From: Bolinopsis microptera
Taxonomy: Eukaryota > Ctenophora > Tentaculata > Lobata > Bolinopsidae
Length of the DNA stretch: 62,000 bases
Assembly: GCF_026151205.1 (NCBI RefSeq)
Contig: NC_087078.1
Location: 2,880,175-2,942,174 of the forward strand
Reading direction: 5' to 3'
Every line of letters starts with the position of its first letter. Position 1 is the stretch's first letter. Of the stretch, positions 18,034 through 36,514 are shown piece by piece. The translations under genes were made by a program, and so were the position numbers. The notes under the pieces were generated by a model, which was given only the letters and a program-made list of their open reading frames with translations, had not been told where the DNA came from and searched no databases.

Positions 18034-18210
18034 ACAGATGCCATGCAGTTTAACAACTATCTCAAATCACTGATCAATAAGTAACTTAGACATCATTACC
18101 AGACAGAATGATATATTTTTTAAATAATTAACAATACTAAAGTTTTAAGGAAACAAGTCATAAATCCTTTTGAATCCTGACCACTAGTACGAACAACCTG
18201 CATCTAAAAC
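18034..18210. other. 5' flank of the LamG gene
   Basis: Short AT-rich region, no clear TATA box. Confidence 0.3.
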
Positions 18211-19371
18211 ATGATTGCGTACAGAACCTCACTCATCATACTCCTCTTTCTGACGGCTGTGATCTCGGACAAACCCCACGTTGCTCTAAAGTTTGGTGAT
18301 GATAAATCAAGTTATATAATGATTGCCCCGGACATGTCCCCACTAGAGGAACAGGTGTCAATCTGTGCCTGGATAAAGAAACTGAGTCCCACTTCTAATT
18401 ATGGAGTGTGGCTTCATTACCACACTAGGGATAGTGAAACTGAGATACTCTTCTCTGAAAACTTTAACTACGCTTATTTCATGTCTGGCAACATTCCAAA
18501 GAGTCAGACTCACGTACATTCAGAGTGGTACCATATTTGCATTACATGGTCTTACAGCAGCGGGAAGAAGACCCTCTTCTACAATGGCGTGCAGATTGGG
18601 ACTGCCTCGTCGCGCTCTGGACGGAAGTTATCTCTCGCAACCGGCTATCTCGTTATCGGACAATATCATATCACCTACAAGATGGAGGCTTGGTTTAGGA
18701 ATGGTAACTCATTCGGAGGTGAAATCACAAAGTTGAACATCCTGAAAAGAGAACTGACCGAACAAGAGGTAGCCAAAATGTACAAGTCAGGGATCTGTTC
18801 CAGCTTTGAAGAAACACTTGAAACTGACACCCATCTTTCGTGGGAGATGCTACTTTCCGATGATACCGAAAAACATGGAAACATTGTGAAGTTAAACTTG
18901 ACCTGTCCGGATCACACACACGAGCCAACCACTGGGATTCCTACCACGGCTGTACCAACCACTGCTGTACCAACCACTGCTGTACCAACCACTGCTGTAC
19001 CAACCACGGCTGCGCCAACAGAAGAATCTGAGGGGGGCTGCAACAACCGCTGGGCAATCCTCCGACTGTCTGAGTTCTATAATAAGGTGAAGATAATATT
19101 ATGAGTTGTAGTAAATTAGTAAATAATTAATCGGGGTTTATTTATTTCATCTTGTTATACCAACAAAATGAATATATGGGGTATGGTTTGTGCTGAAGAT
19201 TGTAGGAAATTACAGATTATCTTTAATGATTTTTTTCAGGAAGTGACAGCCACCATGATGCAAGATTTGAGGGAAAGATGGGAACTTTTAGCTGAGTTTG
19301 AAGGGCATGTCATAGATGATAGCTTAATATCCCACCTGAAGGAACATCACTGTACCAACGAACAACAATAA
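18211..19371 (+). CDS. Secreted LamG/pentraxin-like protein with mucin-like linker (two exons)
   Basis: Exon 1 (18211-19086) and exon 2 (19240-19371) join in phase 0 across an AAG/gtgaag donor and a ttttttcag acceptor, giving 335 residues. Without splicing the frame ends at 19104 with a meaningless tail. Residues 1-19 are a signal peptide. About 22-195 is a concanavalin-like LamG/pentraxin fold: VSICAWIKK, EWYHICITWSY, KTLFYNGVQIG and GGEITKLNILKRELTEQEVAKMY are the usual strands and closing segment. Then come a Cys-bearing linker and five PTTAVPTTAV-type repeats (about 248-268), likely O-glycosylated. The tail is Cys-containing and helix-prone (DLRERWELLAEFEGHVID). Such proteins bind glycans or matrix outside the cell. 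AATAAA lies 48 bp after the stop. Confidence 0.85.
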
Positions 19372-27395: not shown

Positions 27396-27879
27396 GTACG
27401 TACTACAAGTGTTCATTTATGACTCAGTAATACAATTAAACAACAAGTTAACTTAAGAGTTGCAATTTGATTGATATACAATATCATGCGATAGTTTATT
27501 AAAAAACTTCGAAGGCTTTTAACTTGAATAACAATATCATTTTTAAAGCAAGGTTTGTAATTGAAGGCAAGCATATCGGTCTGTACTGATGTAAAGGATT
27601 TTTGTTCTCAGTTTCTATGAAATTGTACCATGTACATATTTTTACCTCGTTCACCCTTCCAGCTCATGCATCAAGGCTGATTCTTCATCCTCACACTTAC
27701 ACGCCTTCAATTAGTCACCACCTGGAACTTTATCATATATAATTATAATCACGTCATCGCCCCATCATCCCTTATAGTCGAAGACGATAACATATGCATA
27801 TTTTTAATAAAACAAATATTTTTAATAAAACAAATATTTATTTTTACGGCACAATCAAACAATATCAATAATAAATAAA

Positions 27880-27975
27880 TCAGGGGAGGTTTGAAGAGGT
27901 TTCAAGTGCCGAAGGCCACTGCTTATCTTTAGGATTTGAGAGTGACCTGTGCTTGAAACCCCCTCAACCATCCAC
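27880..27975 (-). other. 3' UTR stem-loop of the LINE
   Basis: GGTTTCAAG and CTTGAAACC pair about 60 bp apart, with a further internal pairing of GGCCACT with AGTGACC. This lies just upstream of the tandem 3' tail. In this LINE group the reverse transcriptase recognises a 3' stem-loop; that role here is inference. Confidence 0.55.
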
Positions 27976-28199
27976 TACGTCAATATAAAACTTATTATAC
28001 AAATATAGAAAAATATAATTATCTAAGCTAAAATTGCTTATTGGTCTAGTTTGGTGACATAGGAGAGCCCAGTTGAGTTTTAGTTTAGGTTTATGTTTTA
28101 AATCATAGTTTGAAAGGTTAGCCATGTTTCATGGCAGAGAGAGATATCATGTGTGCAGAGCCGTACCAGATGTAGAATTTGAGATATAATATAGATTAG

Positions 28200-30460
28200 T
28201 TACCATATATTAGGGTCACCTCGATTTTGGAGGGATAGCAAGTGCTTTTTAAGGTTAGATTTAATAATACCTGACGAGGCTGATAAGTCTGAATTTTTGG
28301 AAGACCCCGGGATTATTATCCCATCTACATTAGCATCACATATTTCGAATACATAGGGGATGAGATCATTCCATATTTTCGTAGAGGTGTACAAAAAGTT
28401 CTGTTGGGAGATATCTAACCTCAGTAATGGGACAATCAGACGAAGTTTTTCATTTCTAGGACAGAACTTGAAAAGATCTTTAATCGACTGGGGGACATCA
28501 AATTTAAGAATTTTGAATAGCTCCATAAATGTATGGTACATGTGCAGATTCTCCAGGTTCATAATTTTCTGCTCAGTGAATAGCGGTTTAGTGTGTTCAA
28601 GACAGTAGTTCTTTTTAGCCATATGTTCGTTATAAGGTCTTGAACGTGCACAGGTTAAGTAGTATTCTTTATGATCAAAATTGGGAATGTTACCAAATAG
28701 CAGTCGTATACATCGTTTTTGAATAGCAAAGATTTTATTCAGCTTATGTTTAGGGATCCCACCCCAGCAACTTATACAATAGCTAAGATGTGACATAAAA
28801 AGAGCATTGTATAGTTTCAAATATTCAGATTTGGGAATGAATTTGCAAATTCTCTTAATCGATACAATACTGGAGTTCAGCTTTAAAGATAAATGATTAA
28901 GATGTGGTTCCCAACATAGCTGTTCGTCTATTATCACCCCAAGAAATTTGTACATTGAACTTTTTCTAGCTTTTTGCCATCTATTGAAATCGTTAGATTC
29001 CTGTTAAAGGGCCGTGTTCTAGCACAGGTCTGTGTTGCTCTTGACAAACCTTGCTGAAAATGCATAAAACAACTTTTCCCTGCATTTATATGTAACTTGT
29101 TAGACTCCATATAGTTACTGACCTGTTTCATTACATGATTAGCTTTTTCAAAAGCTTCCTGTGCTGAACGACCTATCACAAAAATATTTGTATCATCAGC
29201 AAACAGGACGAATTCAGCCAAACTTGAGGAGCTCACAATATCATTTATATAAATCAGAAATAGTAGAGGTCCTAACACTGACCCCTGGGGTACACCATAC
29301 TCATCTGAACACTTGTCCGATTTTTCAGTTTGAAAGAAGTTACTTGGCTACGGTTTGTTAGATAGCTAGCAAGAGTTTTTAGTGCAATACCTCTTACTCC
29401 ATAGTGTTCAAGTTTATGCAGGAGTTTATCGTGCTCAATTGTGTCAAATGCTTTACTTAGATCAATAAATATTCCAATTACATGATTTTTCTGTTCAATC
29501 TCATTAAGTATTTTATTGACAGAATAGTTTACGGCATGAGATGTTGAGTGTTGTTTTCTAAAACCAAATTGTCGATCATAAATCACGTTCATAGCACTGA
29601 GGTAATTATATAACCTATTATAAATTATTTTTTCAAGTATTTTGCCAAATATCGGTAATGTAGAAACAGGTCGATAGTTATCAAGGCATCGTGAGTCTCC
29701 TTTTTTATAAATTGGTGTAATAGAGCCCGTTTTAAGCTTGTTTGGAAAGACCCCATTGTCCAAGAACCAATTAAAGAATCTAGAGATATGACCAGACAGA
29801 TAATTTACACTCTTTTTCAAGACTTTAACAGAGATATCACTTGCCTTCCATTTTCAAGGCTACCAATAATTTTACTTATCTCTTCCTCGTCACAGGGGCT
29901 GAGAAAAAAAGAGTTCACTATTCTTTCTCTGCCCTTGAGGTATTGTTTAAACTTCGTTTTATTGAAATTGCCATCAGTTACCGTACGAGATGGTACAGAA
30001 GATGAACTTTTGAATTAAGATTACGAGCAATAGACGAGAAGTAGATGTTAAATCCGTTGGCAATCTCACGGCGTTCAGTTACAATTCTACCATCAATTAA
30101 GAATGATGCTTTTATATCTTTTTTAGATTTACCCCTGAGTTCGTTGATCAATTCCCAGGTTTTTTTAATATTTCCTTTAGCAAGTTCAAATTTTTTCCCA
30201 TAGTGGGCTTTTTTCGCAGATTTTATAGCTTTGTTTAAGATAGAACGATACTCCTTATACTTAAGATATAAAGTTTCCTCACCTAATGGGTGATTTTGGT
30301 ACACGAAGCCTTCCATCGCTTGTAGTGAAAGCCTTTAGTAAACACAGATTTAATTAACGCAGAAGTGATCCATGGATTCATCAATCTATTGCGTTTTGAT
30401 TGAAAACCAGCAGTACAGTCCACTTTGAAATTCTGTTCGATTTTTTCGTGGACAGTTTCG
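28200..30460 (-). pseudogene. LINE ORF2, linker and reverse transcriptase
   Basis: Minus-strand blocks: a linker with NPWITSALIKS (about 30370); fingers with ITPIYKKGDSRCLDNYRPVS; catalytic motif A FIDLSKAFD (Asp120 of the 29272-29820 frame); motif B in the frame carrying VPQGS next to LGPLLFLIYINDI; motif C FADD (first Asp at 29195-29197); then MYKFLGVIID and a thumb/C-terminal domain with WGGIPKHKLNKIFAIQKRCI, ending at 28200. Frameshifts lie near 29330, 28950 and about 30000, and two adjacent stops are at about 30480. All three catalytic Asp residues are retained although the frame is broken. Confidence 0.9.
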
Positions 30461-30539
30461 ACAAATTTTTCAAACCTTCCTCATCATACGAAAAGTTCGA
30501 TTGGTAGATATCCTTTCCCAATATCATTAAGGAAACTTT

Positions 30540-31615
30540 CTATATTAGACTCACAGTAATCATACTTAGGTTTAAGTTTGGCAGTATTTGAACTCTCTTT
30601 AATATTACACGATATGAAACAGAAGAGGGGTTATGATGGGAAATCTTGGATTCAAGAATTCCAGATCCTAACACACGCTCAGTAGAGTTCACTAAAATAT
30701 TATCAATTAAGCTTTCATTGCAACCCGGCTTGGCATGGGTGGCAATCGATATCAAAGGGATTAAATTGTTACTGTAGATAGTTTGTTCAAATTCAGCTAT
30801 GTTTCGTCCCTGGGCCAAAAGATCAACATTGAAGTCACCTGTCAAGGCTACATTATTAGACGGTTAGAAATTTCATCAACACATCAAGCTCAGCAAGTGC
30901 ATCTTGAATATCACCACTAGGGGGCCTGTAAACAACACCAGCAATCTGTGGAACCTCTGTGTTAGTGATCTCAACGAAAAGTGTTTCAAGATTGTCAGAG
31001 CATTTACATAACTTTTCGATTCGGCTGTATTGGTACTGATTGTCAATATATATACCAAGGCCACTACCTTTCTTTTTCCCATCAGTTTTAGAGTTGTACT
31101 CACTGCTGTAACCATCAATTTTGTATAGATCTTTATTTTCCTCATTAATGTTTGTTTCAGCTAGCGCAATAACTGCAAATTTCTCATCATATTGACTCAT
31201 ATCAGTAATAAAGCTGTCAAAGTTAGATGCGTTCCCATCAATGTTGTTAAACACAATAGATATAAACGGCTTGTTATGGTTAAGTATGTTTTTTGACAGC
31301 CGGTTGAAATTTGTCATGTTATAATACCTACAGTCTTTTAGAATGTTTGAAATAGTCTCCATATCCTCGTCTCTTTCTACAGTGTTGGGATCATATTTGT
31401 CATAAATAATTGAGTTAAAAGGATTGTACCTTTGGGATTTGAAGGCGTCTAACACTGACTGCAGTGCCACATTTGTTTAACATGATCAAATTTAAAACTC
31501 TGTTCAGAACATTTGGCATGATATATTGTATCGCAACTCTCACATATTATGATTTTATGATGGCTTTGTACATTGCTATCACAACCTGGACATCTCTCTC
31601 TTGTAATATTGAAGT
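30540..31615 (-). pseudogene. LINE ORF2 N-terminus: PHD finger and APE-type endonuclease
   Basis: About 31480-31610 encodes ERCPGC, IIICESCD, YHAKC and WHCSQC, a C4HC3 PHD finger, separated by one frameshift from the endonuclease frame (30856-31470). The endonuclease shows FNNIDG, LAETNI, GSGLGIYI and VVYRPP. After a frameshift near 30865 come TGDFNVD and LIDNILVN. The last motif reads SHHNP instead of SDHxP, so the catalytic Asp is replaced by His. The domain normally nicks target DNA to prime reverse transcription; this copy would be dead even with the frame intact. Confidence 0.85.
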
Positions 31616-33780
31616 TTATTGAGGTCTTATCGGTAAGATATCACCCGTACTACCCCTACTTAGGGCACTCCTATAGTCACCATTTCCACCTTTAAATCTT
31701 TCCGTGGACTGACTTCCACCACGTTGTACAATACACCGTTTTATGTTCATACAAAATATTTTCAGGCCTTCTCTCCCGAGATGAACAACATCATTGACCA
31801 ATGGTGTGCCATCACGTGAGAATCTACCATACTTAGAGGGCATACATCCGTTAACAGAACCTAGTACAGAGTTATCTATAATAAACATGTTTTTCCTATT
31901 ATAAACCATGTCGACAATTAAACTGTTTAAACTCCCCTATACGTGAGTTAACAAACTGTGATTTGGTGGCAAGAGTAAACTAATATGAACTTTACTATTA
32001 GGATAAAATTGCTGAATTTCACAACATTTCTTCTTAAGCTTAGCAATAAGTGTTCTAGTGGATGGTCTGTTGGAATCATCTCGAATATCATTGATTCCGT
32101 ATGTATAACAATGTTCCGAAAGGGGCCTATGTCTTTGGGAGCAGGAATATCGTCGATTTTAGCAGCCCACATTCGCTTACCGGGAACCCATTTTCCTAGA
32201 GTTCCAACATCTTTACCAAATTTAATGTACTTAGTGTTTGAGTCTCCAATTAACACTGTGCTATTTTTGTAGAAAGGCGCAATATGCCTAAAGGTAAAGC
32301 TGTACCTCACAGAAGTTTTCTCTTCAGATTCCTCGCCATCTTCTTCATTAGCGAGGGGTTCAATACCATGATTCCAGATTTCTTGGGACATTCTGAACAT
32401 CACGTATACACTTCCATCTTTGAGCTTTAAGGACTTTTCAGTCGACTTATGTGTGAACTTTATTGTGCGTTCTTCACCAAGGGACACAGTGACTATTATC
32501 GATTCTGGGTCAATAAGAACCTCATTGTCGCAGTGTTGGGGGATATGGCTACTATTGCCTGTATATCTTGTAACAAGGCAAGAGTTCAGCCAGCTCTTCC
32601 TATTGGGGAGAGAGGGACGCACACAGTCCAAAAGATCTTGTATCTCCGGTGGAGTTTCCTTTGCCTGATGATAGGCTCCTGTGTACCAGTATCCATGTTC
32701 ACCAAAGTAGACAACATCCCTGCTGCCACCAACCGAAGAAAAATCCGCACTATTGTCCTCCAGCAGCTTTATAAGTTTGCTGTGAAGCTCAACAGGCACT
32801 ATATCTTCCTGATAAGTTAGATAAGGGTCACATGCAGGGCCTTCAGGAATTTGAGATGCAGCAAAGTGAGGAGAAGTAGTGTTAGGGGTCATAAGGATAG
32901 ATTCATTGTAACGTAGTTCACCTTCATCAAAGTTCTGTGTGGACGTTGAGGGACATACATGATCATTGATCTTTTCCAATTGCACTTTGATCTGGGTCAT
33001 CAGGTTGTCAACATGATCGAAAGTACTGCTGTTAGTCGGAGGTTGCTCTGTCATAGGTATATTTTTGAGAGAGTCCTTCAGGCCATCAATCTCCTGTTTG
33101 AGAGAGTTGCTGGTTGTCTCAAGAGCTGAGCCACTCTCCTTTACTTTCGTAAGTACACCCTTGATAGAAGCTATGTCTTCAGTGATATCTTCAATTCCAG
33201 TCACTAATCGTTCTGTTCTTTTGGAGTGTTCTTTGAAACAACTGTCCTCCTTGAGTATGAGGTGTTTGATATGCTCGTTGAAGAACTCTATGGTTGTTGT
33301 ACTTTCTTTGAGTTCCTCATTACACTTTGATATCTTAGAAATATTGCTAAAGAATTCTGTTAACGCTTTGGATTTTTCCTCCTCCTTCAATCTTCTTGTG
33401 TAAGGAAAGATAAAGCAGTCCGGGCACTTCCAGGAAGTGCTGAGCTTCTTTAGAGAAGTTGCTGTGAGGCCAGCAAGGTTAACACAGTTAGAATGGAAGG
33501 TCTGCTTACAAGTAACACATAAGATTGCAGGGTTCTTTGACTCTACAAAGCAGGGACACTTAGAGAGTAGCGTTCCTGGGATCGATGCTGGTTCGTTGCT
33601 CTCTACATCTACAAAGTCTCCATCAGATGTTAGATCTGCATCTGGCTCTGTGTTCCTATTATGTATTCTGCTAATACATATTGTATAATTCTGCAAAATA
33701 AAACATGTTTTATTACTTATAGGATGATAATTAATCACTCTACAGTCGACTGTCACGTGACGAAAACGCCGTGATTTCAT
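31616..33780 (-). pseudogene. LINE ORF1: PHD finger, coiled coil, AlkB-like dioxygenase, SGNH esterase
   Basis: The open frame 33780-31948 gives 610 residues. Residues 75-122 are a C4HC3 PHD finger (C75, C77, C88, C91, H96, C99, C119, C122). About 130-275 is charged and heptad-like. About 326-500 is an AlkB-type 2OG-Fe(II) dioxygenase: H416-x-D418 and H471 to bind iron, R492 and R498 (R-x5-R) for 2-oxoglutarate, with TVSLGEER and SFTFR strands. Residues 509-516 (VLIGDSNT) start an SGNH esterase. A one-base deletion near 32104 breaks the esterase before its N-D block; the D-x-x-H block (NDVVHLG) is in the 31616-31909 frame. The first ~20 codons lie in the neighbouring dispersed repeat, so the true start is unclear, and a ttttgcag there could be an acceptor. 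Confidence 0.88.
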
Positions 33781-34278
33781 TGGTTAACCTGATAACGCGC
33801 CGCAGATCTCTATAAACACAAATTATTCATCGCGCGTGCAGTAAACTCAAATTAAGTCCTAATTTGTTACCGAAATTTGGCAACTATCAACATCATGGCA
33901 CAATTAAGTCGCATGCCCAGTAAATTGCTAATCAAATGTACGGCACTAATACTACAGTCTACACTTACAGTGTATGAATTTATGAACGAATTTATTAAGG
34001 CAGATTGGTAGAACAACGATCGTAAATGATAATTTGTATTAACAGTGCGAAAGTGTTCTTAAGAGTTAAGGGAGACTGTTGTGCAGCCATGTCGGGAGTT
34101 ATAAAACACCGAACACGTCATTAAAGACACTTTCCAACTACAAAACTTAACCACAAAACCAGCTCTGAGCACTATTGATTGACACGTAACGCGGGCGTAT
34201 AACATGTGCTTATCCAATGCGAAACTAAAAGTGGTGAAAATGGAAGAATCGACTGTAGAGTGATTTAGCGCGACCGTT
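33726..34278 (-). mobile_element. Dispersed repeat with CACTCTACAGTCGA termini
   Basis: About 33726-34175 is the reverse complement of 41797-42258, and 34176-34277 is the reverse complement of 26403-26502. The 14-bp motif lies at both ends (33736-33749 and 34249-34262), giving a 527-bp unit with terminal inverted repeats. Inside is a 57-bp piece of the 119-bp satellite monomer (34118-34175). It has no coding capacity. It lies directly 5' of the LINE, so it is either an insertion neighbour or supplies the LINE's 5' leader. Confidence 0.8.
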
Positions 34279-34807: not shown

Positions 34808-35036
34808 ACCCTGACCCTGACCCTGACCCTGACCCTGACCCTGACCCTGACCCTGACCCTGACCCTGACCCTGACCCTGACCCTGACCCTGACCCTGACC
34901 CTGACCCTGACCCTGACCCTGACCCTGACCCTGACCCTGACCCTGACCCTGACCCTGACCCTGACCCTGACCCTGACCCTGACCCTGACCCTGACCCTGA
35001 CCCTGACCCTGATCCTGATCCTGATCCTGACCCTGA
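34808..35036 (+). repeat. (CCCTGA)n hexamer array
   Basis: About 38 units, with three GATCCT variants near the right end. On the other strand this is (TCAGGG)n, a one-base variant of the TTAGGG telomere unit. Confidence 0.95.
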
Positions 35037-35089
35037 CTTTAAACTTTCCAGATAGTTACATGGCTATATATGAATATATGAAACATTTG

Positions 35090-35415: not shown

Positions 35416-35833
35416 GGGGGGGGGGGGGGGGGGAGCCAAGTAGATTTTTGTAGATATTTGGATACGTTAATTCACCACTTTTTTTCGTGAATTATCCATT
35501 ACAATAATCTACAAATATCTACATTTATCTACAAAAAATGTATATCTCAAATATGTGCCCAGAAATTCTACTGAATTTTTGGAGATAAATGTATAAATTT
35601 GTAGAATTTGTAGAATTTTCGTGAATTATCCATTGACAATAATCTACAAATATCTACATTTATCTACAAAAAATGTAATCTCAAATATGTGCCCAGAAAT
35701 TCTACTGAATTTTTGGAGATAAATGTATAAATTTGTAGAATGTCAACCACTTTTTTCGTGGATTATCCATTCTACATTAATCTACAAATATCTACAAATA
35801 TCTACTTGGCTCCCCCCCCCCCCCCCCCCCCCC
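35416..35833. mobile_element. MITE with G-run terminal inverted repeats
   Basis: It begins with about 18 G then AGCCAAGTAGAT and ends with the complement ATCTACTTGGCT then about 22 C. It is flanked by AGATA on both sides (35411-35415 and 35834-35838), extendable to CCAGATA if the C-run is counted. A roughly 105-bp segment is duplicated inside (35512 and 35637). It is inserted in one unit of the 178-bp array. Confidence 0.85.
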
Positions 35834-36514
35834 AGATAGTTACATGGCTATAAGACGATTAATCTGAGCAAGTTTGGGCGAATTTATATGTGTCAAACTT
35901 GAGATATGAATTCAAACACATTAAAATATCTCAAATTGGCAGTTTTGGTACGATATTTGACGAAAGTCGATTATCTCAAGATCTTACTGATAGAATTTCT
36001 TAAAATGTTTCCAAATAGTTACATGGCTATAAGACAGACAATATGAGCAAGTTTGAGCGAATTTCTATATGCCAAATTTGAGATATAACTTCAAACACAA
36101 GAAAATATCTCAAATTGGTGCGTTCTAGCGGAACGCAGGCATATATTTTGAGATCTGACTGATAGAATTTCTTTAAACTTTCCAGATAGTTACATGGCTA
36201 TAAGACAGATAATCTGAGCAAGATTTGGGCAAATTTCTATGTGCTAAACTTGAGATATGACTTCAAACACATTAAAATATCTCAAATTGGCGGTTTTGGT
36301 ACGATATTTGACGAAAGTCGATTATCTCAAGATCTAACTGATAGAATTTCTTTAAACTTTCCAGATAGTCACATGTCTATAAGACGGATAATCTGAGCAA
36401 GTTTGCGCGAATTTCTATGTGCCAAACGTGAGATATGACTTCAAACACAAGGAAATATTTCAAATTCTATCAGTTAGATCTTGAGAAAATCGAAAATAAC
36501 CGTCAGCTTATGTA

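Follow-up and report, generated by a model that had tools for sequence, protein, structure and literature searches.

We analyzed a 62,000-nucleotide stretch of the genome of the ctenophore Bolinopsis microptera (contig NC_087078.1, positions 2,880,175 to 2,942,174), hereafter the window, and found in it a long interspersed nuclear element (LINE) whose first open reading frame (ORF1) encodes an AlkB-type 2-oxoglutarate (2OG) dioxygenase domain. The domain, with its catalytic residues, is present throughout the family of this LINE, and related domains that lie beside reverse transcriptases (RT) elsewhere in the genome are under purifying selection. The AlkB domain appears to be old and common to many LINE families and some Helitrons, which makes the observation larger than was supposed in an earlier note on this sequence. 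The parts of the window LINE are listed below.

27805..33673, minus strand: whole LINE insertion, 5′-truncated inside ORF1 (single blastn match to the intact copy L039)
31948..33783, minus strand: reported open frame, 611 codons from stop to stop; the element part starts from 33673
33415..33543, minus strand: PHD-like finger, residues 80-122 (Pfam PHD, E 8.7e-5)
32281..32889, minus strand: AlkB domain region (PF13532, our own profile and alignment A1)
32527..32535, minus strand: H416-x-D418, Fe(II)-binding; both residues in 16/16 A1 rows
32368..32370, minus strand: H471, Fe(II)-binding; kept in 16/16 A1 rows
32287..32307, minus strand: R492-x5-R498; both arginines in 16/16 A1 rows, aligned with R-x5-R of human ALKBH3 and ALKBH2
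31627..32265, minus strand: putative SGNH esterase part, interrupted here by a frame break (3′ limit estimated via the L039 alignment)
28200..31626, minus strand: ORF2 with endonuclease and reverse transcriptase, split here among several frames, limits approximate (ORF2 profile)
27798..27839, minus strand: 3′ tail, an 18-bp tandem repeat in 2.3 copies, the array reaching 7 bases beyond the L039 match

The element is a two-ORF LINE whose ORF1 carries, in this order, a PHD-like finger, a middle region, the AlkB dioxygenase and a putative SGNH esterase. The frame described in the earlier note, which gave no strand, is real and lies on the minus strand, but its first ~36 codons are flanking DNA, since the element begins at 33673; likeness of the frame to its relatives stops at about residue 562. 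The Pfam matches expected for it were found in part. As shown by the 2OG-FeII_Oxy_2 model (PF13532), residues 362-498 of window ORF1 are an AlkB domain (E 4.4e-18, 66.6 bits vs a cut-off of 31.2), and the PHD finger scored slightly below its cut-off (22.9 bits vs 24). The Pfam GDSL model found no match in the window copy or in L039, and the SGNH part alone found none in the PDB. The GDS block claimed for this part does lie in the main frame, whereas the D-x-x-H block is in a separate frame (31616-31936). All three blocks, GDS, G-I-N-D and D-V-V-H, are present in intact L039, and GDSL models matched below cut-off in the relatives L013, L014, L027, L028 and L041; the SGNH assignment is made because of these blocks and matches.

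In L039, ORF1 has 750 codons with the AlkB match at E 9.5e-19 (68.8 bits), and its stop overlaps the first ATG of ORF2 as ATGA. Stop-to-stop ORF1 frames of 749-750 codons were found at six places (L030/L039, L033, L034, L035, L037 and L038), and the truncated L031 and L032 have frames of 737 and 744 codons. ORF2 of L039 is intact over 1147 codons, with RVT_1 at E 3.6e-39, which bears out the earlier note in assigning this combination of PHD-like, AlkB and SGNH domains to the ORF1 of a LINE. Its Exo_endo_phos match was below cut-off (E 2.3e-4), and that of the relative L040 was above it (E 8.8e-7). A weak PHD-like finger (E 0.001) was also seen in ORF2. Against solved structures, LINE-1 ORF2 proteins were the best matches, and R2 proteins stood within the top eight. 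In the window, the ORF2 profile matched six frames between 28203 and 31476.

Aligned with L039 over 5878 bases, the window insertion (5869 bp) shows 99.54% identity, 11 mismatches and 14 gaps. Thus, the window copy is young. The gaps are 1 or 2 bases each, most of them in short base runs, indicating that the frames may have been broken by errors of assembly or by damage of very recent date. The alternative of an old, "otherwise decayed" copy, as it had been called, is ruled out by this identity and by the size of the gaps. On the 5′ side, the match coordinates place the longest family copies ~1.36 kb beyond the window copy, which begins within ORF1; the sequence shared by L031 and L032 is likewise shorter on this side. 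L030 and L039 are one place, and L029 is the window copy itself. A short tandem 3′ repeat takes the place of poly-A in the CR1/L2 lineages of the Jockey superfamily. The 18-bp unit at the end of the window LINE, repeated 2.3 times with no poly-A, agrees with this trait, and the ORF1 domains and the tail together suggest CR1/L2 affinity. A simple search for a target-site duplication gave a single 9-base match within the repeat-like tail, which was taken for chance.

The catalytic residues H416-x-D418, H471 and R492-x5-R498 are located exactly where the earlier note had put them. We take R492-x5-R498 to belong to the iron/2-oxoglutarate residues. Alignment A1 holds 16 of 35 domain rows, leaving out near-identical copies, host-like rows and L036, which has an internal stop. 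Six columns, H119, D121, E123, H174, R195 and R201, are invariant in 16/16 domains of transposable elements (TE) in A1, whose rows are merely 23-43% identical to the window row. Of the 35 domain rows, 34 show the iron triad and R-x5-R, the exception being L036, which is cut by the stop.

The domain is not a one-copy insertion. The search with window ORF1 listed 80 rows, 40 of which had 85-100% identity and were merged by hand into ~33 places, so that the AlkB domain is family-wide. PF13532 alone gave at least 151 matches (150 of 587 candidates scored). At least 369 distinct AlkB places were counted in the genome, among them at least three host-like genes; this number, a lower bound, joins the rows of four listings, two of them entered in part with apparent repeat rows omitted. 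We then related AlkB places to RT matches, of which 150 were scored from 6502 candidates. For 59 of the 150, an AlkB place was listed on the same strand at a distance of 1.5-6.5 kb upstream, compared with 1 downstream and 2 on the opposite strand as controls; a smaller set of AlkB listings gave 41 of the 150. Among RT matches with an ORF2 frame of at least 1100 codons, 30/46 had a listed AlkB upstream, including three rows with frames of 1169-1172 codons.

To see which elements carry the domain, 20 loci were taken from 150 listed PF13532 rows, picked to span frame lengths and scores and so not random. Eleven are LINEs that all have a whole or fragmentary ORF2 next to AlkB, another six belong to the Helitron type (L012, L015, L017, L019, L020 and L022) and three, without an ORF2 match, are host-like (L009, L010 and L011). 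The host-like loci joined human enzymes in the tree, L009 with ALKBH2 (support 100/99) and L010 and L011 with ALKBH3 (85/88). Since 17 of the 20 sampled AlkB loci are transposons, ALKBH genes should be counted with caution in genomes of this kind. A second LINE type (L016, L018, L021 and L023) carries AlkB near the start of an ORF1 of 777-851 codons, as located by Pfam in L016 and by our own profile in the others, and its RT is distant from that of the main LINEs (the RT of L023 is outside that tree).

In the main LINEs, an SGNH-like part follows AlkB in 11/11 ORF1 variants. Six variants have GDS as the serine block of this part, and two (L026 and L027) have TDS or HDS; in L013, L025 and L028 the block reads SSS, yet these three retain the D-x-x-H block. 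The PHD-like pattern C-P-C...C-x2-C...H-x2-C...C-P-x-C is present in 5/11 variants (the window family, L024, L040, L041 and L042), and L014 gave a weak Pfam PHD match only. Neither pattern nor Pfam match was found in L013, L026, L027 and L028, and the pattern search, the only one made for L025, found none there. Because the motif is thus confined to five variants and a weak sixth, the PHD finger "steering" the protein to chromatin, as the earlier note had proposed, would not be general across the LINE families.

Three Helitron-type loci hold the AlkB domain in very long frames:

L012:4303-9900, plus strand: Helitron-type frame, 2459 codons
L019:3383-9901, plus strand: Helitron-type frame, 3388 codons
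L020:1-6618, minus strand: Helitron-type frame, 3321 codons

Each contains GDSL_2, AlkB, DUF6570 and Helitron_like_N within one frame, with the SGNH part ahead of AlkB. Helitron_like_N matched at E 2.6e-22 to 3.2e-22 in all three, and GDSL_2 was above cut-off in 1/3. L015, L017 and L022 were called Helitron type from their AlkB sequence. Conversely, 7 of 41 Helitron_like_N matches had an AlkB place within ~4 kb upstream among the PF13532 matches listed, and in six of these seven pairs the frame length was identical for both domains. A broken place on contig C10 near 4.30 Mb also has both Helitron_like_N and AlkB.

Selection was measured as the ratio of replacement to silent change (dN/dS) by the Nei-Gojobori method. 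In related families, purifying selection acts on the AlkB domain, dN/dS being 0.04-0.28 in 21 of 22 measurable pairs; in five wider pairs, silent sites were saturated and no ratio was obtained. The second LINE type gave 0.04-0.05 in 6/6 pairs, the L013-L025 pair 0.14, and Helitrons 0.13-0.28 in 14/15 pairs. Outside AlkB, the second LINE type had 0.19-0.39 in the rest of ORF1 (three pairs) and 0.06 and 0.10 in ORF2 (two pairs). AlkB was the most constrained part of ORF1 in the measured pairs of this type. The selection suggested by the earlier note was thus observed in related families, and the window's own family is too young, with too few changes, to give a ratio.

We compared the histories of AlkB and RT. 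In the AlkB tree, which contains few cellular rows and uses the cellular side as outgroup, the main LINE and Helitron domains formed one group (99/99), from which a cyanobacterial AlkB and both the host-like and the human ALKBH2/3 were separate. Two pairs, L026 with L027 and L013 with L025, were well supported in the AlkB and RT trees alike. L040 and L041 paired with good support by RT and with weak support (82/35) by AlkB; the window family had L024 as its partner at 100/99 in the RT tree, and the AlkB tree left this pair unresolved, L024 being merely the nearest row. For ten families, the table of AlkB distances agreed with that of RT distances (Mantel r 0.78, p 5e-5), in a test without the second LINE type and without L025, which was left out because its ORF1 and ORF2 histories differ. 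This agreement indicates that AlkB in the main travelled with RT. AlkB appears to have entered a LINE lineage long ago and to have been largely inherited with the reverse transcriptase. A single recent gain in one family is ruled out by the many diverged families and by the same agreement of distances.

Exchange takes place too. Between L013:6037-9500 and L025:255-3720, the silent distance was 0.05 in ORF2 and ~1.7-2.0 in ORF1, and DNA likeness dropped stepwise near the ORF boundary, which marks an ORF1 swap. It agrees with PMC4120745, where ORF1 in the Jockey superfamily is described as having a reticulate history.

An alternative is that Helitrons, main LINEs and the second LINE type gained AlkB from hosts independently, with no common TE-specific history. 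The TE domains are joined all together with low support (74/45), so that a single origin for all of them would be tentative; the weak joint is that of the second LINE type, which also has its AlkB near the start of ORF1. Independent gains would, however, fit poorly with the 99/99 group of main LINE and Helitron domains, even with few cellular rows in the tree, and we consider them rather unlikely.

As for function, the A1 profile was compared with the PDB. ALKBH3 (1.9e-31) and ALKBH2 (1.9e-26) were the best solved matches, followed by ALKBH8 (2e-15), E. coli AlkB (1.7e-11) and other, weak ones. These two animal repair enzymes have the layout H-x-D-[DN]-E, H, R-x5-R in common with the TE domains, which, unlike them, form their own group and are housed in ORF1 or Helitron proteins. 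ALKBH3 and ALKBH2 reverse 1-methyladenine and 3-methylcytosine, ALKBH3 acting on single-stranded DNA and RNA, and both lesions block copying. We propose that the AlkB domain of LINE ORF1 is probably an element-borne repair enzyme that keeps single-stranded intermediates copyable. The ORF1 protein would coat the element RNA. With Fe(II), O2 and 2-oxoglutarate, its AlkB domain would remove methyl groups, above all those of 1-methyladenine and 3-methylcytosine, from single-stranded RNA and possibly also from single-stranded DNA formed at insertion. As such lesions would block base pairing and halt the reverse transcriptase, the predicted benefit is that more copies reach full length. The Helitron domain may likewise serve the single-stranded DNA intermediate.

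The earlier note had left open whether the domain repairs nucleic acid or reverses host marks. In the latter case, AlkB would remove a regulatory mark, N6-methyladenosine (m6A) on element RNA or N6-methyladenine (6mA) on DNA, and so escape silencing, as has been proposed for the AlkB of orchid Ty3/gypsy elements. A retrotransposon AlkB protein is reported to bind RNA and to act as a demethylase in vitro (PMC9289625), and A1 weakly matches structures named DNA N6-methyl adenine demethylase (E 2e-4 to 5e-4). However, the E-values of ALKBH3 and ALKBH2 are ~16 and ~11 orders better than that of the next human homologue, ALKBH8, and neither ALKBH5 nor FTO is among the 38 PDB sequences matching A1 at E ≤0.001, so that an eraser of the ALKBH5/FTO type is unsupported. 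Helitrons move as DNA, and a mark on RNA only fails to explain their related domain. The kinship with ALKBH3/ALKBH2, together with the occurrence of a related domain in LINEs and Helitrons, favors template repair over removal of regulatory marks, which we regard as improbable.

We hold it less probable still that AlkB is no longer catalytic and is an RNA-binding or structural part of the ORF1 protein. ORF1 proteins are thought to package element RNA (PMC3905857 and PMC4120745). Catalytic blocks in such proteins can change, as SSS in the SGNH serine block of L013, L025 and L028 indicates, and the N of the N-x-Y motif varies. Nevertheless, none of the 16 rows departs from the HxDxE, H and R-x5-R residues, despite 23-43% identity to the window row. 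The frames of the window copy are broken, which would fit a host ALKBH gene that inserted by chance into a single LINE copy, or an artefact of assembly; both are ruled out for practical purposes by the ~33 family places, the at least 369 genomic AlkB places and the 11 LINE loci of 20 with ORF2 beside AlkB.

Several observations weigh against an old, selected repair enzyme carried along with RT. Among the AlkB places listed, in listings that ended at ~150 rows, none was found upstream for 91/150 RT matches, which include each of the seven rows with 1181-codon ORF2 frames. The TE domains fall outside both the ALKBH3 group (human and host-like) and the ALKBH2 group in the tree, and the substrate is argued from kinship alone. 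The N of N-x-Y, presumably a 2-oxoglutarate contact as in E. coli AlkB, is replaced by T or S in several LINE families, including that of the window. As for selection, the region before AlkB in L013-L025 is equally constrained (0.14), the remaining Helitron pair had dN/dS 0.89 on four changes, and seven copies of the window family compared with L039 had, in sum, 4 silent and 2 replacement changes in AlkB.

With these points taken into account, template repair is still the function we favor, and the related Helitron domain points to a shared need, that of single-stranded intermediates, and not to RNA regulation alone. More tentatively, an old TE-specific AlkB lineage common to LINEs and Helitrons could represent a general adaptation to long single-stranded intermediates, each element having its own direct-reversal repair enzyme; AlkB-SGNH ORF1 would then be a further ORF1 type, which might even dominate the LINEs of this genome.

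AlkB-bearing RNA viruses of plants have no reverse transcriptase. Those of the Alphaflexi-, Betaflexi- and Closteroviridae resemble the window LINE in having AlkB in a selfish RNA replicon, and their AlkB demethylates RNA in vitro, with a role in genome integrity postulated (PMC9289625). Viral contigs were scanned with profile A2 for relatives, giving 11 pattern matches, none of which was confirmed. The nearest precedent found in the literature search is the orchid (Phalaenopsis) Ty3/gypsy retrotransposon, which carries an ORF for an AlkB demethylase and, like the window LINE, is a retrotransposon with an AlkB-type 2OG dioxygenase. As described in PMC9289625, the orchid system is a plant long terminal repeat (LTR) element with AlkB as an additional ORF, near to m6A demethylases and found in orchids only. 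In contrast, the ctenophore domains are in LINE ORF1 and Helitrons, are ALKBH3/2-like, and occur in many diverged families.

CR1/L2 LINEs resemble the window LINE in their two ORFs, an endonuclease-RT ORF2 and an ORF1 with PHD or esterase (PMC4120745; ZfL2-1 esterase, PMC3905857). The words AlkB and dioxygenase are absent from the text of the 448-element Jockey-superfamily survey (PMC4120745) and from that of the esterase paper (PMC3905857). In that survey, the esterase ORF1 type is confined to two vertebrate groups. Bdelloid retroelements are similar in that accessory enzyme domains (GDSL and DEDDy ORFs) are common to unlike element classes, as PMC5408684 describes; the enzymes are different ones, and the words AlkB and dioxygenase are absent from that text. 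AlkB is also treated in PMC11294593 and PMC10161547, but neither deals with transposons. No account of AlkB in LINEs or Helitrons emerged from the literature search, in agreement with the earlier note, to whose author the architecture was not familiar; Repbase, preprints and most subscription papers were outside the coverage of this search, and prior notice is possible. What appears to be new is a conserved, selected AlkB domain in LINE ORF1 and in a Helitron protein. The roles of LINE ORF1 past RNA packaging are poorly understood, and a selected demethylase domain makes it testable that an element repairs or unmarks its own template. These elements also provide a large natural set of AlkB domains.

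Other features were observed in the window. An (ACCCTG)n hexamer array at 34808-35037, with 38 copies and 99% matches, lies ~1.1 kb past the 5′ end of the LINE; it is open in several frames and is read as dipeptide repeats. Two more tandem arrays, with units of 134 bp and 179 bp, occupy 35482-36466. On the plus strand, a 298-codon frame at 18208-19104 matched Laminin_G_3 (E 6.7e-14) and Pentaxin (E 4.1e-12) and is perhaps an exon of a host gene.

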